A stretch of 36,607 nucleotides of DNA from Acidilobaceae archaeon (lineage in GTDB: Archaea > Thermoproteota > Thermoprotei_A > Sulfolobales > Acidilobaceae), in the NCBI GenBank assembly GCA_027080775.1, contig JALWPV010000080.1, forward strand, positions 1-36,607, given 5' to 3'. A model generated the notes under the pieces. It searched no databases. It was given only the letters and a program-made list of their open reading frames with translations, and was not told the DNA's origin. How positions within the stretch are numbered: the stretch's first letter is position 1; each line of letters starts with the position of its first letter. The position numbers were made by a program, and so were the translations under genes. Below are positions 27,348-36,607 of this stretch, in pieces.

Positions 27348-27716
27348 TTGATACGGATAGCATATGTTACGGATAAACTACGGCGATTAGTGTTCCAAAA
27401 CATAATCCTCGCAACCTACAGGCCCGGCCCCACGGGCATGGATGGTTACTATAAGCTTCAAGCAGTGAAGAATGACTTCAAAATATTCGTGTCGGAACTC
27501 ATGATTAGAGGCTCAATAGCGAAGTATTCCTATACTCTCTTGCACAAGGAGGAAATCATACTCAGATACGATAACGCCCCGCATCACCCGCGTATAGAAA
27601 CGTTCCCGCATCATAAACACTGGAGAGACGAGGTAATGCCAATCTACGATCGTTCAATAGATTCCTTCCTGGAGGAGGCGGCATCCCTAATGGAGGGGCC
27701 AGGCCGTGGTAGATAG
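27348..27716 (+). CDS. TumE-like (DUF6516) toxin-family protein
   Basis: A 122-residue protein whose second half carries the strongly conserved DUF6516/TumE segment RYDNAPHHPRIETFPHHKH, preceded by SIAKYSYTLLHKEEIIL. The family is the toxin of type II-like pairs; it is proposed to be an RNase, but the mechanism is not settled. TTG 27348 gives the open frame. A better start signal, ATG 27332 with AGGAGAG six bases upstream, is in another frame that closes after 14 codons, so the 5' end may itself carry an indel. The gene is 38 bases after the frameshifted antitoxin. Base composition is clearly lower in GC than the chromosomal genes around. Confidence 0.75.
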   Translation: MIRIAYVTDKLRRLVFQNIILATYRPGPTGMDGYYKLQAVKNDFKIFVSELMIRGSIAKYSYTLLHKEEIILRYDNAPHHPRIETFPHHKHWRDEVMPIYDRSIDSFLEEAASLMEGPGRGR

Positions 27717-27909
27717 TAGCCCCTCCCCGCCTCATAGAGATGTAGCTGGGTGCTCCTGGGACCCCGTTACTCGGGCTCTTCTCCAGGCCATACGAGGTAG
27801 GCTCCACGCCAGGGAGTAAAGCCGGTCAGCGCCGCGCCAGAGCACCGCGGCTCTCGGCCGGGTTATGGGCGAGGTTATGAACTCTCCACGCGGGCCCGCG
27901 GGGTGTGGG

Positions 27910-28668
27910 GTGGGTTTGTTGGCGGGTAGGCTCTACGACATGCATTGCCACTGCAGCGAGTTCGAGCCCAGGGAGCTGGGGGCCATACTTGAGGGGCACC
28001 CGGGCCTGGTGGTCGTGGCCGTCTCGGAGGATGTGGAGAGCCTCCTGGAGACCATAGGGCTGGCCCACCTCTACCCGGGGAGGCTCGTGCCGTGCGCGGG
28101 CTTCCACCCCTGGGTGATAGGGGAGAGGCCCCTCTCCCAGCTCGAGGAGGTCCTCAGGCTAGCCTATAGGCACGGCATAGCATGCCTCGGGGAGGTGGGC
28201 CTCGACAGGAAGTTCGTACCCCACACCTGGGAGGCCCAGGTCCAGGTTTTCACGAGGATCCTCCGGGAGGCCCGCGACACGGGGGCCCTCGTGAACATAC
28301 ACGCCCCCGACGCCTGGAGGGACGCCCTAGCCCTACTCCTAGACTACGAGGTCGAGAGGGCCTTCTTCCACTGGTACACCGGGCCCCTAGACCTCATACC
28401 CGCCATAGGGGAGGCTGGCTACAAGGTCTCAATAAACGCCGCCATCAGGATACAGAAGAAGCACCAGAGGGTGGCCGCCCACACCCCCCTAGAGTACATG
28501 GTCACCGAGAGCGACGGCCCCTACAACTACAGGGGCCTGAGACTGAGCCCCGCAATGATACCAGAAACAATCAAGGTCATAGCCGAGGTAAAAGGCGTCG
28601 ACCCCCAGGAGGTCGAGGAGGCGGCTAGGAGGAACGCGGAGAGGCTCCTAGCAACGGTTAAACCCTAA
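27910..28668 (+). CDS. TatD family metal-dependent hydrolase
   Basis: A TIM-barrel amidohydrolase related to TatD DNases. Metal ligands are present in order: HCH in YDMHCHCSEF (His12 and His14 from this start), Glu in CLGEVGLDRK, His in VNIHAPD, His in FFHWYTGPL and Asp in TESDGPYNY. Length is about 252 residues, normal for the family. The start is ambiguous: GTG 27910 and TTG 27919 both have GGGGTG-type sites and place the first beta strand right at the N-terminus. ATG 27865 would add 15 residues of low-complexity sequence. Codon use is that of the host, so this is chromosomal DNA between two accessory patches. Confidence 0.88.
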   Translation: MGLLAGRLYDMHCHCSEFEPRELGAILEGHPGLVVVAVSEDVESLLETIGLAHLYPGRLVPCAGFHPWVIGERPLSQLEEVLRLAYRHGIACLGEVGLDRKFVPHTWEAQVQVFTRILREARDTGALVNIHAPDAWRDALALLLDYEVERAFFHWYTGPLDLIPAIGEAGYKVSINAAIRIQKKHQRVAAHTPLEYMVTESDGPYNYRGLRLSPAMIPETIKVIAEVKGVDPQEVEEAARRNAERLLATVKP

Positions 28669-28670
28669 AA
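28665..28670 (+). promoter_or_regulatory. TATA box of the tRNA gene
   Basis: CTAAAA just at the stop of the TatD gene, about 32-37 bases before the first base of the tRNA. Confidence 0.5.
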
Positions 28671-28701
28671 GCCCCACGACCACAAGCCCCAAGCTAGGGG
28701 A

Positions 28702-28795
28702 GCCGCCGTAGCTCAGCGGTAGACCCCTGCGCGGGGCCGACAGCGCCGGCCTTGTAAGCCGGTGGTCGCGGGTTCGAATCCCGCCGGCGGCTCCA
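28702..28795 (+). tRNA. tRNA-Thr(UGU) with a 19-base insertion in the D-arm
   Basis: The acceptor stem is GCCGCCG (28702-28708) paired with CGGCGGC (28785-28791), discriminator T28792 and encoded CCA (28793-28795). The anticodon stem CCGGC/GCCGG encloses loop CTTGTAA, anticodon TGT. The T-arm is GCGGG-TTCGAAT-CCCGC. The D-stem GCTC (28711-28714) can only pair with GAGC if 19 bases are removed between 28722 and 28743, so the gene appears to carry an intron at an unusual D-arm site. The 3' half is the apparent integration target of the elements downstream. Confidence 0.85.
28724..28742 (+). other. candidate tRNA intron in the D-stem
   Basis: Removing 28724-28742 (or equally 28723-28741, because both ends have A) joins GGTAGA to GCG and restores the D-stem GCTC/GAGC. 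The segment itself contains a small hairpin, CCCC-TGCGC-GGGG. I could not draw a canonical bulge-helix-bulge around the junctions by eye, so the splice mechanism is unproven. Confidence 0.6.
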
Positions 28796-28809
28796 CAAAC
28801 ACCTCCTAA
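28751..28809. repeat. att-like repeat, copy A (inside the intact tRNA-Thr)
   Basis: The 59 bases from the anticodon loop through the tRNA 3' end and 14 bases of flank recur at 29910-29968 with a single mismatch (A28756 versus G29915). This fits the left attachment site of an element integrated in the tRNA gene. Confidence 0.85.
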
Positions 28810-28856
28810 CCATCACAGGCCTAGTTGTAATTGCAAGCGCTACATCCCTGCGGTGC

Positions 28857-28863
28857 TTTTAAG
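28857..28863 (+). promoter_or_regulatory. TATA box of the DUF104/PIN module
   Basis: TTTTAAGG lies about 38-44 bases before the TTG at 28901. The start also has AGGTGG five bases upstream. Confidence 0.5.
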
Positions 28864-28900
28864 GCTTAGGACTGTGTTATAGAAGAGTTAGGTGGGCGGA

Positions 28901-29107
28901 TTGGCTAGGGTTGTTCGTGTGCGTTATGAGGGGGGTGTGTTAAAGCCTCTGGAGGAGCTAGACCTTAACGAGGGAGAGGAGTTGACGGTTGTTATTAAGG
29001 GCAGGAGCTTCTACGAGGTGGCCAGGGAGCTCCAGGTTGAAGCGAGGGAGGATGTGGATAAACTAGTTTCGGAGGTCCGCGGGCGTGGCAAGAAGCTCTA
29101 CAACTAG
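28901..29107 (+). CDS. DUF104-family antitoxin
   Basis: A 68-residue protein matching the AF2212/PG0164-like (DUF104) antitoxin family: an N-terminal beta part VVRVRYEGGVLKPLEELDL, then NEGEELTVVI, followed by a toxin-wrapping tail with helix FYEVARELQVEAREDVDKL. TTG 28901 is preferred over GTG 28892 because it has AGGTGG at the right distance and gives the family's usual MARVVRVRY-type N-terminus. It overlaps the PIN-domain gene by 23 bases, the usual arrangement for such pairs. Confidence 0.85.
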   Translation: MARVVRVRYEGGVLKPLEELDLNEGEELTVVIKGRSFYEVARELQVEAREDVDKLVSEVRGRGKKLYN

Positions 29108-29591
29108 CGTTGTGCTAGACACTACTGTCATCGTTAAAAGCATCCTAAAGCCTCCAAGGCATCTTCCTCCCCACGTATATAGGCGGGAGGTCGAGACACA
29201 CAGGAAAATCCATGCTATCCTGGAGATTCTTGAGAGCCGAGGCTATACAGTCTACTTTCCCCGGGCGGGTATCGTTGAAGTGGCAGCTGTTCTGAAACGG
29301 GGTGGACTTAGCAGACAAGCCATAATCGGGCTGGTAAAGAGTATGGAGGAGACGTTTATCATCGTAGGCGAGGACATAGTCTATGGTAAAGCCTTCGAGA
29401 TAGCTCTTGAAAGGGCTCCCTCAGGCTTTGACACCTACTTCATAGCATTAGCTGCAGCGACAAGCTCAATGCTGATAACCGATGACAAACCCATGGCTAG
29501 CCATGCAAAGGCCCTAGGTATAGAAACGATTCTCGTGCGAGAGACTAGTCTAGAACAAATACGAAGGAACCTAGCAAAACAACCAAAGTAA
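29085..29591 (+). CDS. PIN-domain toxin (VapC family)
   Basis: A 168-residue PIN-domain ribonuclease of a toxin-antitoxin pair. Predicted metal-binding acids are Asp12 (VVLDTTVIVKS), Glu65 (AGIVEVAAVL), Asp116 (GFDTYFIALAAA) and Asp133/Asp134 (LITDDKPM). GTG 29085 has GGAGGT eight bases upstream. The gene appears intact. Together with its antitoxin it is the only coding content of the 1.16-kb interval between tRNA repeats A and B. Confidence 0.87.
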   Translation: MARSSTTSVVLDTTVIVKSILKPPRHLPPHVYRREVETHRKIHAILEILESRGYTVYFPRAGIVEVAAVLKRGGLSRQAIIGLVKSMEETFIIVGEDIVYGKAFEIALERAPSGFDTYFIALAAATSSMLITDDKPMASHAKALGIETILVRETSLEQIRRNLAKQPK

Positions 29592-29909
29592 AACCCGTAG
29601 CACGTCCACGGCTCCTCGAAGCCTTCACGATAATGTCCGGGATAATATTCTGGTTGCCCTGAACACATAGTAACGTTAATAGCTAGTCGTACAACTAGGT
29701 TACTGCCCGCCTCTGGCGCTGCTCTGGCATACGTGTTCAGGAGGAGCCACGAGAGGAGATTTCCCTCGGCCCCAAGCTCTCGCAACAAGACCTTACTCGC
29801 AGGGCAGCGTTTCACTGGGCAGGCATGATCATTTGCCTTGATAGCTGGCTGTGCGTAAACGTTTCAGATTCTCATCGATTACTGAGACATCTGTATCTGT
29901 ATCTCTGGT
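29592..29909. other. region without a recognisable gene, up to repeat B
   Basis: No frame here looks like a protein. A minus-strand frame reaching into it is a shadow of the PIN gene, and another ends in translated tRNA sequence. The composition is AT-richer than the chromosome. It may contain element termini, but I see no repeats or RNA structure that I can defend. Confidence 0.5.
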
Positions 29910-29968
29910 CTTGTGAGCCGGTGGTCGCGGGTTCGAATCCCGCCGGCGGCTCCACAAACACCTCCTAA
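29910..29968. repeat. att-like repeat, copy B (tRNA-Thr 3' half plus flank)
   Basis: 58 of 59 bases match 28751-28809, including the anticodon loop, T-arm, acceptor 3' strand, CCA and 14 flanking bases. The 5' half of the tRNA is absent, so it is not a working tRNA. It is best explained as the right attachment site. Confidence 0.85.
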
Positions 29969-30019
29969 TCTTCGAGATTATATTACTATCCTCATTTAGA
30001 ACACTTTTACACCCAATCT

Positions 30020-30364
30020 TCACGTTTTCAGTTCTAACTCGAACTCATAGCCTAGTTCGGAGGCTGCCTCGGCTATCACTCTGAAGTCTTTATCTCTTGT
30101 TATCAGCCTCTCCCCTCTGTTAAGTGCTATGGAAGCTATTAGTAGGTCGGCGAATGCTTGAGGACTTCCTTTCTTTAATAGTTGCAGTTGGAGTTTATGA
30201 GCGGTGAGATAATCTTGCTCCACGGGGAATATAACGTTGCCTTGGAAGCGTTTGTAGTACACTATACGAGGGTATTCCACGAGGGTCACGACGCTTATAT
30301 CCTCGATTATGTGCTTCCTCTCGCGGACCAGGTCTATCACAATACTGGTATCTAGTATAGTCAA
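30020..30364 (-). CDS. VapC-type PIN-domain toxin
   Basis: A 114-residue PIN-domain ribonuclease, compact like most VapC toxins. Predicted active-site acids are Asp5 (MTILDTSIVIDL), Glu30 (SVVTLVEYPR), Asp73 (AFADLLIASIA) and Asp91/Asp93 (LITRDKDF). The TTG start overlaps the antitoxin's TGA by four bases (TTGA), showing translational coupling. The gene appears intact. It lies just after repeat B, in the second interval of the island. Confidence 0.9.
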   Translation of the reverse strand: MTILDTSIVIDLVRERKHIIEDISVVTLVEYPRIVYYKRFQGNVIFPVEQDYLTAHKLQLQLLKKGSPQAFADLLIASIALNRGERLITRDKDFRVIAEAASELGYEFELELKT

Positions 30365-30609
30365 GATAGTCGCTCCCTCTCGCGTCTACGCAACTCTTCT
30401 ACATCGTATTCTCCCGCCTCAATGTCCTCTAGTAGCTGCTCTCTCTCCACGCCGAGCCTAGCCCTAATTTCTTCGATACTAATCCGACCCCAGAGCCTCG
30501 CCGTCACCTCCTCCACAACTCTCCGGGCCTCCTCCTCCGAGACCCACGGGGGCAGTCTAACCGTGATAGTCTTCGGCTTACTACCCACCGCCACCACCAC
30601 TCCTACCAA
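30361..30609 (-). CDS. VapB-type antitoxin
   Basis: An antitoxin of about 82 residues directly upstream of the VapC gene. The N-terminal segment KPKTITVRLPPWVSEEEA looks like a ribbon-helix-helix DNA-binding domain. The C-terminal half is helical and highly charged (EQLLEDIEAGEYDVEELRRR), as expected for a toxin-binding tail. The start is uncertain: TTG 30609 gives the longest frame, while GGTAGGAG suggests that one of the GTG codons a few triplets later is used. Confidence 0.8.
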   Translation of the reverse strand: MVGVVVAVGSKPKTITVRLPPWVSEEEARRVVEEVTARLWGRISIEEIRARLGVEREQLLEDIEAGEYDVEELRRRERERLS

Positions 30610-30675
30610 ACTTCAGCTAATGAATTCCCGCTCAAACCTTAAAGGTACTCGTGAGCCTTAAGATTCGAACCTCTG

Positions 30676-30905
30676 TTATTGATGCGAAACAGTCTTCATA
30701 TCCTCCTCAAGCTCCCTGGAGGTCGTAGTTTAGCGGTGCCCTTCTGGAACGCAGCTCGTAGGGAAACTCCCTGAGACTTAACCCAGCCAGCTCAGCGGCC
30801 TTCCCCAGCGAAACCCTCCCCTCACGGTAGAGTTCAAGTGCCACTAGTAGCCCTAGCTCCTCCTCGACGCTACGAGGCCTCGCGGGCTCAGAGTCTAATT
30901 AGCAT
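30676..30905 (-). pseudogene. UPF0175 antitoxin remnant with frameshift(s)
   Basis: The minus strand reads VALELYREGRVSLGKAAEL, then AGLSLREF and PLNYDLQ, the unmistakable second half of UPF0175 small proteins. At the GGG of 30713-30715 the frame is lost; skipping one base continues as ELEEDMKTVSHQ and stops at 30676. The N-terminal part of the family is missing, and the only nearby ATG (30903-30905) is also out of frame by one base. So the gene is truncated and interrupted. UPF0175 proteins are usually antitoxin-like partners of PIN or DUF3368 toxins. Confidence 0.65.
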
Positions 30906-30946
30906 GCTAGCCTATTATGTTCTAAGAGCATGAAGGGCGGCCCTCC

Positions 30947-31142
30947 CTAGACCCAGCCCTTGCTGCCGTACTTCTCTATAAGCTCCCTTGTTCTTATGGA
31001 GCTGGTGGGCTAGCTCCTCCCCCTCCACTGGCTCGTGGACAACCACCTCTACGCCCCCAATAATGTATCTGCAGGGCTCCACTACATCGGGAACCTCATC
31101 CAGGCTATGGTAGACCTTAACCCTAGCCTTAACCGCGCCCAA
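30947..31142 (-). pseudogene. small protein downstream of HicB, interrupted by a frameshift
   Basis: From TTG 31142, which has GGAGGT five bases before it, the frame reads KARVKVYHSLDEVPDVVEP then VEVVVHEPVEGEELAHQLHK. Near 30986-30996 one extra A shifts it: removing one base continues as TRELIEKYGSKGWV and stops at 30947. The uncorrected frame instead runs on to 30915 with unlikely sequence. It overlaps the 3' end of the HicB-like gene by 14 bases. I do not recognise the family; it is not a standard HicA. It could be a toxin partner or an unrelated small protein. Confidence 0.5.
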
Positions 31143-31350
31143 CTTCAACCTCCAGCACGCCCACAATGCCCCGATCGAGCCGCTCCAGCTTCTCCAGAGC
31201 CTCCGGGACCTCTTCTAGGTATAGCTCCAGAGCCTCTCGGGGATTCTTAATTGCCTCCTCAACCGTTTTGCCTTGGCTGGTGACCCCTGTAGTAACCTCT
31301 CTAGCCACATACATATCCTCCTCGAGCCAAACAACGACTCTTACACGCAT
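31129..31350 (-). CDS. HicB-like antitoxin
   Basis: A 73-residue HicB-type protein: RVRVVVWLEEDMYVAREV then GVTSQGKTVEEAIKNPREAL and ELYLEEVPE, the classic HicB partial RNase-H-like fold. ATG 31350 is the true start. The frame stays open to 31497 only because it reads through a tRNA T-arm fragment. A TATA-like CTTTAA lies about 22 bases upstream on the minus strand, so the mRNA is probably leaderless. The start sits in a perfect 12-base palindrome, CATCCCGGGATG, a possible autoregulatory site. No HicA is visible. Confidence 0.8.
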   Translation of the reverse strand: MRVRVVVWLEEDMYVAREVTTGVTSQGKTVEEAIKNPREALELYLEEVPEALEKLERLDRGIVGVLEVEVGRG

Positions 31351-31467
31351 CCCGGGATGCCCCTTAAAGTTACGATAAAAGTTACAATACCTGCTTCCAA
31401 GATAAAATCTTGACAGCCCGTATTTTTCTATTATTAATAGTTTGGCTGAAATAATGTTTTGTAGGGT

Positions 31468-31491
31468 GGTGGTCGCGGGTTCGAATCCCGC
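31468..31491. repeat. diverged third copy of the tRNA 3' segment (copy C)
   Basis: GGTGGTCGCGGGTTCGAATC plus CCGC (24 bases) is identical to the variable loop and T-arm of the tRNA-Thr. To the left, TTTTGTAGGGTG aligns without gaps to CCTTGTAAGCCG with several mismatches. To the right the acceptor sequence differs (TAGCATCTC). It is a degenerate att-like remnant, or the 3' piece of another tRNA. Confidence 0.7.
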
Positions 31492-31644
31492 TAGCATCTC
31501 TGTTCTAAGTAGAGCAAGACTATGTGCAGGATCCTCGTCTGCCTAGCTAGACGGCGTATGGTAGACCTTTGAAGAGGTGGATGTGCTGGGCGGGTATATG
31601 GGGGGCGGCCAGCGAAGTGGTCTGCGTGTTTTCGTCCCCTCATG

Positions 31645-31652
31645 GTTTAATA
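31645..31652 (+). promoter_or_regulatory. TATA box of the AbrB/VapC module
   Basis: GTTTAATA lies 24-31 bases before GTG 31676, implying a leaderless transcript. Confidence 0.6.
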
Positions 31653-31675
31653 GTCGGGCTTAGCCGGGTTGAATT

Positions 31676-31957
31676 GTGAGTGGACCTGATTTGCCCCTTA
31701 AGTTGAGGGTTAGGAGGAAGGGCTACATAATACTGCCGAAGGCCATTCGGGAGGCGGTAGGCATAGATGAGGGTGATGAGGTTATAGTCGAGCTTGGGGA
31801 TGGAATCATACTCAAGCCCGCGAAGAGGAGGGTTAACGAGGAGGAGATTAGAAGATCCCTAAGGATGCATCTGGAGAGGCTTAGGGAGATACAGGGCAGA
31901 AGGGAGCCTAGGCCCGGCGAGCTCGCCGGGGCGTATCTCGAGGAGGAGTTCGAGTGA
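31676..31957 (+). CDS. AbrB/MazE-type (SpoVT-AbrB) antitoxin
   Basis: A 93-residue swapped-hairpin AbrB protein: LKLRVRRKGYIILPKAIRE then VGIDEGDEVIVELGDGIILK, followed by a charged helical tail (about 50-93) that would bind a PIN toxin. GTG 31676 is leaderless by its TATA box. Its TGA overlaps the start of the next gene as GTGA, the usual VapBC coupling. The antitoxin reads intact while its toxin is broken, so it is either an orphan antitoxin or on its way to decay. Confidence 0.85.
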   Translation: MSGPDLPLKLRVRRKGYIILPKAIREAVGIDEGDEVIVELGDGIILKPAKRRVNEEEIRRSLRMHLERLREIQGRREPRPGELAGAYLEEEFE

Positions 31958-32374: not shown

Positions 32375-32675
32375 ACATAGACAAACGGCCATTACGTCCG
32401 CGGTCTCGTTATGAATATTGCTTAAGCTACTGGAGGTACAGCCCAGAGCCCAAGACTGGCAGCGAAGCTGTGAGCAAAGGAGCGGCGAGGTTTACCGGCA
32501 GCTAGAGTCTAGGTTCTAAGCCCATCGCTAGTCCCACTGGACTGGCAGCCACGGAGCACGCCTCTCGCTCTATTCCCACCAAAGACCCGCCGTCCCACCT
32601 CTTTACCTAAGTGGATATGAGGCAAGGCTTATCCGAATGTACCATGCTGCTTCTATTTATGAGGGAGGGGCCTCT
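32375..32675. other. intergenic region without recognisable gene
   Basis: About 300 bases between the dead toxin and the next membrane protein. No convincing reading frame, tRNA or repeat is visible. A CTTTACC near 32611 may be part of the downstream promoter. The frame of the next gene can be extended to ATG 32637, but the start with the ribosome-binding site is 32676. Confidence 0.5.
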
Positions 32676-33356
32676 ATGGTGACGAGCAGCGTGTACCGCT
32701 GCACCCTGCTAATAGGCATTGCCCTCGCCTTCGCTGTTCTCATCGGCTTGGGTGTCAAGAAGAGGAGTCACGTCTACTATACTATAGGGGCTGCGGGGTT
32801 AGGCCTCGCCGCACTCGAGCTAGTATATCCCAGGGCCTTCGGCGCCGCCGCCATAGCGGCCGACCTAGCACTCATACCGGTCGCCGTCTGGGCTGCGGCA
32901 CAGTATGAGAGAGGGAGGCTGGATAGGTACTCCCAGGGTCTCGTAGCAATAGTGGTCGCCATAATCCTCCTGACGGGGGTCTCGATGAGCCTCGCCCCCC
33001 GCGACCTCTATGATATAATGCTCGGAGCCGGGATCCTGGCGGCCTACCTGGTCCTAGGGGCCCTCTACTACCTGGCAAGGAGGAGGGGCATCCGCCTGGC
33101 AGACCTCAACCTATGCTCCATGGCCGACAGGAGGATCCTCTACGCATCAATGGCTGTAGGCCTCCTAGTCTCTGTCATACTAGGAGGGCTCCTCTACGCT
33201 CCCCTAGCCTACGTGCACAGGGCGAAGCTGGGCCATAGCCTAGCCAGAGACGAATTCATCGACTGGGTCATTATCGCCTCAAGCACCTACACGATCTACT
33301 GGCTGATGGAGTGGAGCGTAGGGAGATGCCTAGCCCTGAGGATGAGTAGAGCATAG
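32676..33356 (+). CDS. seven-helix membrane protein, unknown function
   Basis: A 226-residue integral membrane protein with about seven hydrophobic helices, for example CTLLIGIALAFAVLIGLGV, VAIVVAIILLTGVSMSL, ILAAYLVLGALYYLA and FIDWVIIASSTYTIYWLMEW. Loops are short and basic (KKRSH, LARRRGIR). ATG 32676 is chosen because GAGGGAGGGG lies five bases upstream; ATG 32637 would add 13 residues. The codon use returns to that of the host, so the island ends before this gene. I do not recognise the family. It converges with the minus-strand gene at 33405. Confidence 0.7.
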   Translation: MVTSSVYRCTLLIGIALAFAVLIGLGVKKRSHVYYTIGAAGLGLAALELVYPRAFGAAAIAADLALIPVAVWAAAQYERGRLDRYSQGLVAIVVAIILLTGVSMSLAPRDLYDIMLGAGILAAYLVLGALYYLARRRGIRLADLNLCSMADRRILYASMAVGLLVSVILGGLLYAPLAYVHRAKLGHSLARDEFIDWVIIASSTYTIYWLMEWSVGRCLALRMSRA

Positions 33357-33404: not shown

Positions 33405-33875
33405 CTATCTCTTAGCTAGGGCTGCGGCGATTGCTACGGCGATTATCGCCGCTGTGGCTCCTAGCACTATGCTTGTGCTTGCCTTGGGGTGTTGCCGCTC
33501 CCCCTGCAGGGTGGCCTCGGGCGTTCCTGGCTGCTGTGCTGGGGTGTTGCTTGTGGTGAAGGCCTGCGTTGGCCCTGTGGGCTTCTTTAGGCCGAGGTCG
33601 TCCTCTGCTACTAGCTTGAGCGCGCTCCTGAGGAGCCTGAAGTCGGCCGAGCTACCCACGGGCACCCCATTGTAGCGGTACGGCCTGCCCGTCAGCCTCC
33701 TCACAGCCTCCCTAAAGGCGAGCCTGGGGCTAAGGGAGAGAGTCATGAGCAAGCCCTTCACAACACTATAAGCGCGACCCCCCGGCAAAGCCTTACACCT
33801 GGCCGGCCCCCAGGCCCTCCAAGGATACTGGTGGACCCTCCTCTTCAAGCATACTCTAGTGTAGTATATGTGCAC
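33405..33875 (-). CDS. small protein with a C-terminal membrane anchor, next to the CARF-like gene
   Basis: The convincing part starts at an internal Met (33746): SLSPRLAFREAVRRLTGRP, then SSADFRLLRSALKLVAEDD, a Pro/Thr/Gln-rich linker (about 35 residues) and a C-terminal hydrophobic helix IVLGATAAIIAVAIAAALAKR. This is the layout of a tail-anchored protein with a cytoplasmic helical head. The start is uncertain. The frame is open to 33914, but a strong TATA box at 33921-33931 implies transcription starting near 33900, so GTG 33875 or ATG 33746 is more likely. No family recognised. It follows the CARF-like gene on the same strand. Confidence 0.5.
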   Translation of the reverse strand: MHIYYTRVCLKRRVHQYPWRAWGPARCKALPGGRAYSVVKGLLMTLSLSPRLAFREAVRRLTGRPYRYNGVPVGSSADFRLLRSALKLVAEDDLGLKKPTGPTQAFTTSNTPAQQPGTPEATLQGERQHPKASTSIVLGATAAIIAVAIAAALAKR

Positions 33876-33919
33876 TACCCCGTTAATGGGGAGCAGTGGG
33901 CCCTCCCCCAGCAATCATC

Positions 33920-34390
33920 TTAATATAATATTATGAGCCTCGCCCTCCAGGGGAGGCTCTTCCCGCAGGGTTCTCTGCAGTCTCTGATCCTCCTATAGTC
34001 CTCGTCCGATATTATAGCCGAGACTATGATGGAGCCCCTGTTGAGGGCCTCGAGGGCTGCTGCGACGGCCATGAGCTTCCTCCCCCCTGTCAGGTCGAGT
34101 ATCGAGTCAGCGTCCAGGATGCCTCCGAGGATCCTCCTCAGGGCCGCTAGGTCCCCGGGCTCTCTGATGTCGTTGAATGGTAGCAACTCTACCCTAGCCG
34201 GGACCCCAGGGGGCCTCCCGTCGGGTGCGCAGGGGCAGGTTGAGAGGATCCCCAGGGCCTCTCGGGCCACGTCGGGGTTAGTGGCTAGTATGACGTGCTC
34301 CTCGAGCCTGTAGCCCTCCCCCGCGAGGAGGCAGGCGACAGTATGCGGGGTGCCCGGGCTCATGCCTAGCAGCGAGACCAGCCTCGCCAC
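33920..34390 (-). CDS. CARF-domain protein, CRISPR ring-nuclease-like
   Basis: A 156-residue single-domain protein that looks like a Rossmann-type CARF domain, which binds cyclic oligoadenylates in type III CRISPR immunity. Residues 4-13 read LVSLLGMSPG, the first strand and loop of ring nucleases and Csx1-type CARF domains, with a Ser at position 11. DSILDLTGGRKLMAVAAALE at about 96-115 is the signature [DN]xTGGxK motif. A Lys-rich loop near the end (CGKSLPW) might supply a further ligand-binding residue. The short length without an effector domain suits a ring nuclease (Crn1 type) that degrades the messenger, but a pure sensor is also possible. GTG 34390 is the start. It is divergent from the NurA-HerA pair. 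Confidence 0.7.
   Translation of the reverse strand: MARLVSLLGMSPGTPHTVACLLAGEGYRLEEHVILATNPDVAREALGILSTCPCAPDGRPPGVPARVELLPFNDIREPGDLAALRRILGGILDADSILDLTGGRKLMAVAAALEALNRGSIIVSAIISDEDYRRIRDCREPCGKSLPWRARLIILY
33921..33931 (-). promoter_or_regulatory. TATA box for the anchored small protein
   Basis: On the minus strand ATATTATATTA overlaps the TAA of the CARF-like gene. It lies 46-56 bases before GTG 33875, so the downstream gene may have its own promoter. Confidence 0.5.
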
Positions 34391-34424
34391 GCCGCGGTCC
34401 CACCGTGTGCTCCCCAGGAGAGGG

Positions 34425-34431
34425 ATTTAAC
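34425..34431. promoter_or_regulatory. shared divergent TATA element, CARF-like / NurA
   Basis: ATTTAAC is the only AT-rich patch in the 81-base gap. It is 35-41 bases from the GTG of the CARF-like gene on one side and 41-47 bases from the NurA TTG on the other, so one element could serve both directions. Confidence 0.5.
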
Positions 34432-34471
34432 CCAGCCCCCACGAGCCTATACCTGGGGGTGCCCCGGGCCC

Positions 34472-36052
34472 TTGGCTCTCCACGGCCTCCAGCTCGTCGC
34501 AGCCCTCCTAGGAACAGGGGCCGCCGGGGAGCTGATGGAGGGCTCCAGCGCCATCCCCCCGCTGGAGGTCCTAGACGGGGAGTTTGGCGTCGTATACGTG
34601 GACGCCAGCTCCCGCGGAGAGCCCTCCGGCCTCAATGCCTACCTAGTGAAGCTCGCCATACTCACGCGACTCCACACCCCCGGGGGTGTGGCGGAGAGGA
34701 TCCTCCACCCCCTCCCCACGGCTGAGGGCGGCGGTGAGTTGCCGCCCCTCCTCATGGGGAGGGGCTCGGAGAACACCAAGCAGGCCGTGGTCTACGCCGT
34801 CGAGCTGGCCTCGCTTCTGGCTGTGGCCGAGGCTCCCGAGGCCTACTTCGGGGCCTCGCCTCCCCGTAGGCTACTCCTAGTGAGGCACGGGCCCATCCTG
34901 CAGATGCTCAGCCAGTACCTCTCCAAGCCCTACATAATCGACGCCGACGACGCTGTCAATGCCCTAGTATACGCTGGCCTAGAGAGGGGTAGGGCCCTCG
35001 AGATCCTAGAGTACACCCACCCCTGCGAGGCCTCCGACCTGGGGTACAGGCAGAACCGCAACAAGTCCGTGCTAGGCCTACTCATAATAAGGCTGCTCGA
35101 GGACCTCGTAGACAAGGCCCGCGAGAGGGGCTACGGGCTAGCAGGCGTTGTAGAGGACACCTCCAGGAGTAGGAGCCTCGTAGCAGCGGCCCTAGCGAGC
35201 CTCCTAAGGGCTCGCCCTCCCGCCCGCGGGAAGACCCACAGGGATTGGGCCAAGAACTGGGCCGAGAGCCTCCGGGGGGCGGCGGAGGCCGTGTCAACGG
35301 AGAAGATGGGGGACTGCCTGTGCCTGGAGAGGGAGCTTCTAGGCGACCTACTAGCCTCCCACAAGGAGTGGGAGGAGGTACTCAGAGCCGTGAAGGAGGT
35401 CGCCGTGACGAGGTTTACGATTAACTCCATCGAGGAGCTACTCATTGGAGGGCATGAGGGAGAACTCGAGGCCTCGATCATATGGTCGGGCGTGATGCCC
35501 GACATGACGGACTCGGAGCTACTCTACACGCTCCACTATCTAACCGCGAGGAAGCCGCCATTCGACTACCCAGCTACCCGCGAGCTGAGCCACTCCGGCA
35601 GGCTAGCGATAACGAGGTACTACCTAGAGCAGAAGGGCCTCGTGAGATGCGGCACCGCCGAGTGGCTTGAGCGGGCCCTCGGGAAGCTGGAGGCCATGCG
35701 CTACCGCTACCTAGCCCCCAGCGACCCGCCGAAGTGCGATGACCTGGCTGGTAGCCGCTTAGGTCTGAGGCCCTGCGAGCTCGCCGAGTTGCAGACGGTG
35801 CCGCCAGCCATTAGGCTCGAGTACCTCGAAGGCATGGAGATGCTCGAGGAGGCCGTGGCACTCACCGTCTACCCGGCCCGCTTGGTACTCTACGGCTACC
35901 CCCCACAGCTCCTGGTGGTGGACCACTATAGCAGGATAAAGCCCTCTGAGGCCATGGCCTTCCACGCCATAGCAGGGGAGCTGGCCAGGAGGCTACAGCC
36001 CTACGGCTACTTCATCAGGAGCTGGGAGAGGAGGATAGCCTCGATACTATGA
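34472..36052 (+). CDS. NurA-family nuclease, long form
   Basis: A protein of the NurA family, the 5'-3' nuclease that works with the HerA translocase in DNA end processing. Family features in order: VYVDASSRGE at about 47-56 (the VDGS-like metal motif), RLLLVRHGPILQML (where relatives usually have DGP), GLAGVVEDTSRSRSL, and the C-terminal AIRLEYLEG plus LYGYPPQLLVVDHYSRI. At 526 residues it is clearly longer than the usual 320-420; extra sequence lies in the middle. The Asp-to-His change in HGP means a catalytic residue may be missing. The start TTG 34472 has GGGGGTG 11 bases before it. It is followed by the HerA gene and divergent from the CARF-like gene. Confidence 0.75.
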   Translation: MALHGLQLVAALLGTGAAGELMEGSSAIPPLEVLDGEFGVVYVDASSRGEPSGLNAYLVKLAILTRLHTPGGVAERILHPLPTAEGGGELPPLLMGRGSENTKQAVVYAVELASLLAVAEAPEAYFGASPPRRLLLVRHGPILQMLSQYLSKPYIIDADDAVNALVYAGLERGRALEILEYTHPCEASDLGYRQNRNKSVLGLLIIRLLEDLVDKARERGYGLAGVVEDTSRSRSLVAAALASLLRARPPARGKTHRDWAKNWAESLRGAAEAVSTEKMGDCLCLERELLGDLLASHKEWEEVLRAVKEVAVTRFTINSIEELLIGGHEGELEASIIWSGVMPDMTDSELLYTLHYLTARKPPFDYPATRELSHSGRLAITRYYLEQKGLVRCGTAEWLERALGKLEAMRYRYLAPSDPPKCDDLAGSRLGLRPCELAELQTVPPAIRLEYLEGMEMLEEAVALTVYPARLVLYGYPPQLLVVDHYSRIKPSEAMAFHAIAGELARRLQPYGYFIRSWERRIASIL

Positions 36053-36062
36053 AGCGGCTCGC

Positions 36063-36068
36063 ATATAT
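36063..36068 (+). promoter_or_regulatory. TATA box of the HerA-like gene
   Basis: ATATAT lies 24-29 bases before GTG 36092, so this gene can be transcribed on its own as a leaderless mRNA. Confidence 0.5.
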
Positions 36069-36091
36069 CTAGCCCCACCCACTAGCCACTA

Positions 36092-36607
36092 GTGGGAGGT
36101 GGGTGGGCCTTACAGGCTCCTCCCCAGAAGGCTTCCCCGGGCTTCGCGGGGTTCCTAGTGGAGGTAGAGTCCTACACCCAGGCCAGGGCGGTGATCTACT
36201 CTAGGCAGACGAGCCTCCTACGCTACGGGGCCCTGGCCCTAGTGGAGGACCACGCGGGCCCGAAGTACTTAGCTCTAGTCACGGATGTGATGGAGCATAG
36301 CATCATGCCGGCTATAGACTCGGAGAAGCTCTCCAAGATAATGAGGATCTCCTCCTCGGCGCCCGCGGATCCCCTGCAGATCATGCAGAAGCTCTTCTCG
36401 CCGACCACGAGCCTAGTGCAGTGGCACGGCGTTAGGGAGGTTAGACTGAGGATCCTAGGCCAGATAACCCAGGGCCGCAGGGGCCCCACGCTCGCCCTGC
36501 CCGAGAGGCCCCCTAGGCCCCCCGCGATCGTCAGGGAGCCGGATCCCGCCCTACTGGGTAGCATAGTCTCGGGGGGCCTCGGCCCGAGACTATGCTACCC
36601 AGTAGGG
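36092..36607 (+). CDS. HerA-like ATPase, N-terminal HAS-barrel region only
   Basis: The frame runs from GTG 36092 off the window, about 172 codons. The visible part is the HAS-barrel that precedes the HerA motor: FAGFLVEVESYTQARAVIY, LLRYGALALVEDHAGPKYLA, LVTDVMEHSIMP and VREVRLRILGQI. The hexameric FtsK-like ATPase with Walker motifs would follow outside the window. It lies 39 bases after the NurA gene, as in NurA-HerA pairs. Its last codons fall in the terminal palindrome: the residues encoded after about 36582 are the reverse complement of the earlier arm and are probably artificial. Confidence 0.75.
   Translation, partial: MGGGWALQAPPQKASPGFAGFLVEVESYTQARAVIYSRQTSLLRYGALALVEDHAGPKYLALVTDVMEHSIMPAIDSEKLSKIMRISSSAPADPLQIMQKLFSPTTSLVQWHGVREVRLRILGQITQGRRGPTLALPERPPRPPAIVREPDPALLGSIVSGGLGPRLCYPVG
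36549..36607. repeat. terminal inverted repeat, right end
   Basis: A 25-base arm (36549-36573) is followed by a 9-base loop (GGGCCTCGG) and its perfect reverse complement at 36583-36607, exactly at the end of the window. It lies inside the HerA-like reading frame. A fold-back artefact at a contig end is the simplest explanation. Confidence 0.8.

Follow-up and report, generated by a model that had tools for sequence, protein, structure and literature searches.

A CARF, NurA-fold and HerA gene cluster in an Acidilobaceae archaeon as a candidate CRISPR-associated DNA-degradation module

Near one end of a contig from an Acidilobaceae archaeon, a gene for a small CARF-domain protein stands back to back with genes for a NurA-like nuclease and a HerA-type translocase, an arrangement that raises the question of whether the three genes form a working unit or are merely neighbours. 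The window, that is, the whole stretch analysed, is the entire contig JALWPV010000080.1 (G000:C80; 36,607 bases) of assembly GCA_027080775.1, and the host genome comprises 1.78 Mb in 85 contigs and is rated 99.89% complete. An earlier note, made from the letters of this DNA, had suggested a defence module in which a cyclic nucleotide signal, or its removal, is linked to the nuclease pair. Comparative genomics supports that suggestion, above all through conserved linkage, to which some relatives add arrays of clustered regularly interspaced short palindromic repeats (CRISPR), Csx1 and other CARF genes; on balance, the three genes are probably a CRISPR-associated DNA-degradation module belonging to the type III signalling branch. 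The features concerned are as follows.

33920..34390, minus strand: Crn1-like CARF protein with a short C-terminal tail; 156 residues, GTG start; CARF profile, PDB sequence and fold matches
34391..34471, no strand: divergent intergenic region with putative promoters; 81 bp, with ATTTAA at 34425-34430 and CTATAC at 34447-34452 (from the sequence)
34472..36052, plus strand: predicted NurA-fold nuclease gene, outside Pfam NurA; 526 residues
36092..36607, plus strand: N-terminal portion of a HerA translocase gene that runs off the end of the contig; identified by identity to the HerA N-termini of G010 and G018

The open reading frames and their strands agree with what had first been noted: both LVSLLGMSPG and DLTGGRK lie in the 156-residue frame, the 526-residue frame begins 81 bp away in the opposite direction, and the HerA-type N-terminus follows after a further 39 bp. 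AT-rich stretches, although different ones, were also seen by eye in the intergenic gaps of three other divergent loci. Because the window is the whole contig, HerA is truncated at its end, where the last 59 nucleotides (36549-36607, inside HerA) form a perfect 25-bp inverted repeat with a 9-nucleotide loop and a folding z of -9.9. By eye, the HerA frame tracks its relatives to about 36590 and then runs back through the inverted repeat; the last ~20 nucleotides of the contig are therefore likely to be an assembly fold-back artefact.

As to the identity of the 156-residue protein, it matches the PADLOC CARF_m13 profile of the CARF superfamily at 9.2e-31, a model that also scores the Crn1 proteins of family f9 (the f9 genomes appear to be Sulfolobaceae, some of their CARFs looking by eye like near-copies of Sso2081). 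An AlphaFold2 model built on a 4-row alignment (predicted local distance difference test, pLDDT, 93.6) shows the CARF Rossmann-type fold and superposes on Sso2081 and Sis0455 with Z of 19.4-20.9 and a root-mean-square deviation (rmsd) of 1.9-2.2 Å across 150-152 residues, the next structural group being Cad1 at Z 15.5; in a sequence search, the PDB entries for Sis0455 and Sso2081 were matched with values of 5e-14 to 3e-13. A CARF match was thus obtained by profile and by structure alike, and the CARF claim of the earlier note stands. The NCBIfam Crn1 model (NF040581) gives 3.5e-19 and 69.2 bits, under its curated cut-off of 125 bits, with 91.9 and 48.0 bits for two module relatives and 236.9 and 220.2 bits for f9 controls. 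The equivalents of Sso2081 D75, R105 and K106 are retained in all ten complete module CARFs, and position S11 is serine in nine and threonine in one; the window counterparts are S11, D74, R104 and K105. According to the available part of PMC10018336, single mutations of D75, R105, K106 and S11 lower cleavage by Sso2081, T10A has no noticeable effect, and a helical lid with Y133 shuts over the ligand. As a result, the protein is Crn1-like yet below the Crn1 profile cut-off, and the earlier description of it as resembling a ring nuclease holds for its fold and key residues but not for its profile score or its lid, which is shortened; binding of a ring nucleotide is likely, and cleavage of a cyclic nucleotide is possible.

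The 526-residue protein is more elusive, with no match in Pfam or NCBIfam and none in a PDB sequence search up to an expectation value (E) of 10. Pfam NurA (PF09376) likewise matches none of the 16 members of its family (A1), window included, and a class-level search with that family returned only two weak matches outside the order, G220 and G223. An hhalign comparison with 21 canonical NurAs aligned nothing beyond the C-terminal motif (probability 26%, pairwise E 7e-4), and a canonical-NurA profile matched the relatives in G167 and G018 at 2e-5 in small sets, values that become 6e-4 and 0.03 when a larger nominal database size is assumed. The predicted structure (5-row alignment, pLDDT 74, predicted template modelling score 0.79, last 59 residues below 50) gave weak Foldseek results, the best rows being Argonaute at E 0.08 and NurA 9x1l ranking 19th at E 0.16. 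Once the structural rows were realigned, the first ten were NurA, NurA-like TM1739 or TdpAB with Z of 9.6-14.2, and the next row, which is unrelated, reached 7.4; the model aligns with 3tal at Z 14.2 (rmsd 4.5 over 272 residues), with 2ygk at Z 13.5 (rmsd 4.2 over 248) and with TdpAB (8wfd) at Z 10.9. The protein is accordingly taken as having a predicted NurA fold, an assignment made from the modelled structure and supported by no sequence-family profile, so that the NurA family membership first proposed survives as a fold and fails as a Pfam match. Three acidic residues (D44, E111 and D484) are invariant in 16/16 NurA-like sequences, D44 aligning with the NurA DGG motif only weakly. In Thermococcus kodakarensis NurA, D49A abolishes activity (PMC12977600, available part), and D44 may be the equivalent of that D49.

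For HerA, the window holds the N-terminus only, which is 52% and 44% identical to the HerA N-termini of G010 and G018, whose HerA genes carry the PF01935 HerA domain (5e-16 and 2e-15; the G010 gene is itself cut at its end). Other HerA-like frames of the host on C10, C7, C63 and C68 (C11 and C61 being left out) gave no match to the window HerA part and match module HerAs only locally, at up to 54% over 70 residues. An Mre11-Rad50-NurA-HerA operon lies on C63 of the same genome (Mre11 and Rad50 named by eye), its NurA having 396 residues against the 526 of the protein discussed here; since the genome has this separate operon, the module as a repair copy of NurA-HerA was rejected. A further NurA of 512 residues (Pfam 4.5e-8) lies near the end of G000:C2 (L075 8800-10338), also separate from the repair operon.

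Whether the three genes belong together is answered mainly by their linkage in related genomes. A profile of three CARFs (A2) located 61 places in 44 of the 214 genomes of the order, and their surroundings (at least some 6 kb to either side where the contig reached that far, window included) were scanned in all six reading frames using profiles of CARF, Csx1, APE2256 and the two types each of NurA and HerA; the families concerned are Acidilobaceae, the window's own, Pyrodictiaceae (f8) and others such as f9. The NurA-like/HerA pair adjoins 11 of the 12 CARF places of a short-tailed clade and one of the 49 others (Fisher p 3e-10, relatedness not corrected for), which upholds the conserved linkage on which the earlier note had made its reading depend and led to the rejection of chance neighbours as an explanation. 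The linked loci are those of G000 (the window), G010 (where the contig stops inside CARF), G016 and G018 in Acidilobaceae, and of G158, G159, G166, G167, G170 (NurA lying past the contig start), G172 and G173 in Pyrodictiaceae. In a CARF tree of 60 rows, from which the 38-residue stub of G010 was omitted, the ten linked CARFs and the unlinked one of G174 are set apart on a branch with 99% support; the G174 member is a 77-residue contig-end fragment (L150 5462-5692) with cas10 on its visible side and its other side outside the assembly. The sole linked place among the other 49, in G196 (f9), holds, consecutively and on the same strand, a full-length Crn1, a canonical NurA (PADLOC label 'Type III coevolved'), HerA and a CARF gene of APE2256 type (L159 4911-9293), seemingly a second, independent CARF-NurA-HerA combination.

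These counts also bear on a competing account, in which the CARF is a plain ring nuclease that clears cyclic tetra-adenylate (cA4) and so shuts down Csx1 along with further effectors, and NurA-HerA is an independent DNA-processing pair of the CRISPR island that happens to stand beside it. Its nearest folds being Sso2081 and Sis0455, its retention of S11, R104 and K105, the harmlessness of T10A in Sso2081, and the Csx1 (CARF-HEPN) gene that adjoins HerA in three of the seven Pyrodictiaceae module loci (G166, G159 and G158) are all in keeping with such a role. However, NurA or HerA lies nearby in 1/43 of the f9 CARF places, as opposed to nearly all those of the short-tailed clade, so a ring nuclease in general needs no NurA-HerA; the window CARF differs in its linkage from 42 of those 43, and its clade has lost much of the lid. 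This account is considered unlikely, although it retains real plausibility.

The three genes keep company in several arrangements. The divergent order of the window (G000) recurs in G010, G166 and G167, and also in G159 with two extra genes in between; NurA-HerA-CARF is found in G018, G172, G173 and, as far as visible, G170; CARF-NurA-HerA is found in G016, and NurA-HerA-Csx1-CARF in G158. With start codons picked mechanically, the HerA and CARF frames share 4 bp in G172 and G173, and a gap of 3 bp separates NurA from CARF in G016. Trees of the three genes pair G018 with G172 (NurA-like 100/100, HerA 100/100, CARF 97/95) and G000 with G166 (NurA-like 100/97, and more weakly CARF 84/87 and HerA 82/65, the window row of the last being 21% filled). 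Each pairing joins Acidilobaceae to Pyrodictiaceae with the same order of the three genes, and since these cross-family pairs share gene order, the phylogenies suggest that the genes moved between families as a cassette. Neither the NurA-like nor the HerA tree unites the CARF-linked rows in a single clade: the long-branched G167 groups with CARF-less rows on weak support, and G016:C34, a 4-kb contig with no CARF on it, falls inside the linked rows. No relatives of the module appeared in two scans of viral contigs. Between NurA and CARF in G159 lies a 568-residue protein (L143 8005-9711) that is weakly CARF-PIN-like (PADLOC CARF_m3 CARF_PIN 1e-9).

A further account, that of a second DNA-repair NurA-HerA pair with a CARF gene beside it by chance, could appeal to the CARF-less NurA-like/HerA pairs that are common in Acidilobaceae, but it is already contradicted by the linkage survey; the association spans two families and several gene orders, pairings are shared among the trees, and the repair operon is separate in the same genome. 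It is accordingly given very little credence. The CARF-less Acidilobaceae pairs themselves lie near two conserved genes (fam2 and fam3), one of about 257 residues and one of about 170 residues without a Pfam match. The former is weakly similar to DpdA, a DNA-modifying family (3/8 members, best E 0.019, below cut-off). Both fam2 and fam3 occur at L035, L038-L042 and L046, fam2 only at L049, and both together with CARF at L037, and G016 holds both conserved genes plus CARF. Such loci may represent another way of using this nuclease pair, linked to DNA modification.

Is the module tied to CRISPR? In an exact-repeat scan, G166, G159 and G173 have arrays at distances of 909, 140 and 293 bp from CARF, respectively, and G158 has one some 1,050 bp away from NurA; another lies 279 bp from NurA in G016:C34, which belongs to the same NurA-like group. 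Arrays are thus found within ~1.1 kb of the module at four of the 11 CARF-linked loci (window counted) versus none of 15 CARF-less NurA-like loci (p 0.022), or at 5/12 versus 0/15 if G016:C34 is added (p 0.0098). G166 and G159 were the only loci in which an APE2256-type (Cas_APE2256) CARF gene was seen close to the module. Nine of the 11 module genomes gave a match to a Cas10 protein query, including G166 and G170, which the Cas10 Pfam model had missed. Three of the genomes are single contigs, and in these cas10 is separated from the module by 10.7, 33.1 and 32.2 kb (p 8.5e-4 if placement is taken as uniform). In the host itself, contig C16 carries a type III locus with two arrays, an APE2256-type CARF gene and a Cas10 with HD and GGDD motifs; it is probably of subtype III-B because Cmr3 and RAMP genes are present.

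Arrays beside four module loci and one further pair also speak for a reading in which the module serves spacer acquisition or array repair, with NurA-HerA processing DNA ends for adaptation and the CARF tuning the process by the infection signal, a role close to that proposed by Bernick et al. for nurA-csm6-herA (PMC3396285, available part). Nevertheless, some CARF genes without NurA-HerA have arrays alongside too, and this alternative is judged improbable, well short of the ring-nuclease account. Arrays mark CARF genes generally: they separate CARF-linked from CARF-less NurA-HerA pairs, but not from other CARF loci.

Several observations weigh against a CRISPR-associated DNA-degradation module. 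The exact-repeat scan found no array in the window, as the earlier note had said, and within the searches reported here no cas gene was seen near the module in the window. Eighteen of the 43 f9 CARF loci hold arrays, three of them less than 1 kb from the CARF gene, and arrays also lie near extra CARF loci of G158 and G167 that have no NurA or HerA; arrays are therefore not special to the module. The protein query did not find Cas10 in G010 (82% complete) or G172 (76% complete), and the Pfam model found it in only 13 of 48 family genomes, so co-occurrence with Cas10 is weak evidence by itself. HerA is incomplete in this assembly. The DG motif of canonical NurA is HG in most NurA-like members (DG in G016), so that catalysis at this site is not certain. 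Compared with Sso2081, T10 varies and E17 is replaced by T in the module CARFs. The stretch after GGRK is 49-53 residues long in the 11 clade members whose tail is complete, versus 58-79 for the 43 places of f9, so that a large part of the lid is missing, the model showing helices of just 9 and 4 residues in this region in place of a full C-terminal helical lid. No fusion of CARF to NurA or HerA was seen, and the CARF-less NurA-like/HerA pairs indicate that the enzymes can do without a CARF neighbour. Moreover, the support is comparative-genomic, and the function of the module is accordingly a predicted one.

With these points allowed for, a CRISPR-associated DNA-degradation module would operate along the following lines. 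Infection would activate a Cas10 complex encoded elsewhere in the genome, such as that of C16, and Cas10 would produce cA4, the ring of which the CARF could bind through D74, R104, K105 and S11. The dedicated HerA ring would feed DNA to the NurA-fold nuclease, which would degrade it. Control of the nuclease by a cyclic nucleotide would come from the CARF, which would couple the HerA-NurA pair to the signal; its likeliest part would be that of a regulatory partner that also acts as a slow timer, although it might be a mere off-switch that destroys the signal. The module stays together through rearrangement and, judging from gene order and trees, seems to pass as a whole from one archaeal family to another. 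A bolder and tentative version, one that may well prove wrong, treats the short-lidded CARF as a cA4-gated subunit, present in stoichiometric amount, of a dedicated HerA-NurA machine, making the complex a processive DNA-degrading type III effector driven by adenosine triphosphate, in which the sensor doubles as the timer and which circulates as an exchangeable cassette in hyperthermophilic archaea.

The earlier note had also mentioned a bordering toxin-antitoxin island and, on the CARF side, a small anchored protein that might be a further component. The island is indeed present, its genes spanning 27348-31957, with the following features in this part of the window.

27348: TumE-type toxin-antitoxin gene
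27865: TatD DNase
29085: PIN-domain gene
30020: PIN-domain gene
31129: DUF7387/HicB-like gene
31676: MazE-type gene
33405..33914, minus strand: open frame of the proposed small anchored protein; 169 residues, hydrophobic C-terminal tail, no Pfam match

For the anchored protein, tblastn with E up to 1 turned up no relative among 46 related loci, so that its proposed part in the module was not sustained; together with a membrane protein at 32637-33356, it was rejected as a component for lack of relatives in those loci.

A CARF-NurA-HerA cluster of another type is already published, and the Crn1-like version in the present families is a variant of it. Clusters of nurA, csm6 (APE2256) and herA were reported near CRISPR arrays in Pyrobaculum, Thermoproteus and Vulcanisaeta, with a suggested role in spacer acquisition (Bernick et al. 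2012, PMC3396285). As far as the available part of that paper goes, both combine a gene of the CARF family with nurA and herA paralogues of its own, distinct from the repair pair, and have arrays nearby, at some loci of the present module although not beside the window copy; they differ in the partner (csm6/APE2256 as opposed to a Crn1-like short-tailed CARF), in their NurAs (which have Pfam E-values there, whereas Pfam misses that of the window) and in their hosts (Thermoproteales as opposed to Acidilobaceae and Pyrodictiaceae). A Crn1-like CARF with NurA-HerA in Acidilobaceae or Pyrodictiaceae was not found described in the open literature searched, of which coverage was partial, so that a prior mention is possible. 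The end-resection HerA-NurA complexes of Sulfolobus, Pyrococcus and Thermococcus resemble the module in NurA fold, HerA family and gene adjacency; the window NurA-like protein, however, is 10-13% identical to archaeal end-resection NurAs in structure alignments, has a CARF partner and has no Mre11-Rad50 seen beside it. In defence, a HerA-type motor is combined with a nuclease in TdpAB, HerA-DUF4297 and HerA-Sir2, systems that are not known to include a CARF protein. HerA-DUF4297 and HerA-Sir2 are named in the available part of a paper on T. kodakarensis NurA-HerA, which also suggests an antiviral role for that pair (PMC12977600), and a figure legend in Altae-Tran et al. (2023), a source available in part, lists NurA and HerA as putative CRISPR auxiliary genes.

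The NurA-like proteins add a NurA-fold group outside Pfam NurA, for which other genomes can be searched. Known cyclic-oligoadenylate effectors are mostly single fused proteins (RNases, nickases, proteases and deaminases); if the proposed coupling is correct, a signal-linked HerA-NurA would amount to a CRISPR-controlled, motor-driven machine for shredding DNA, and it would give a function to the CRISPR-linked nurA-herA pairs reported in 2012.

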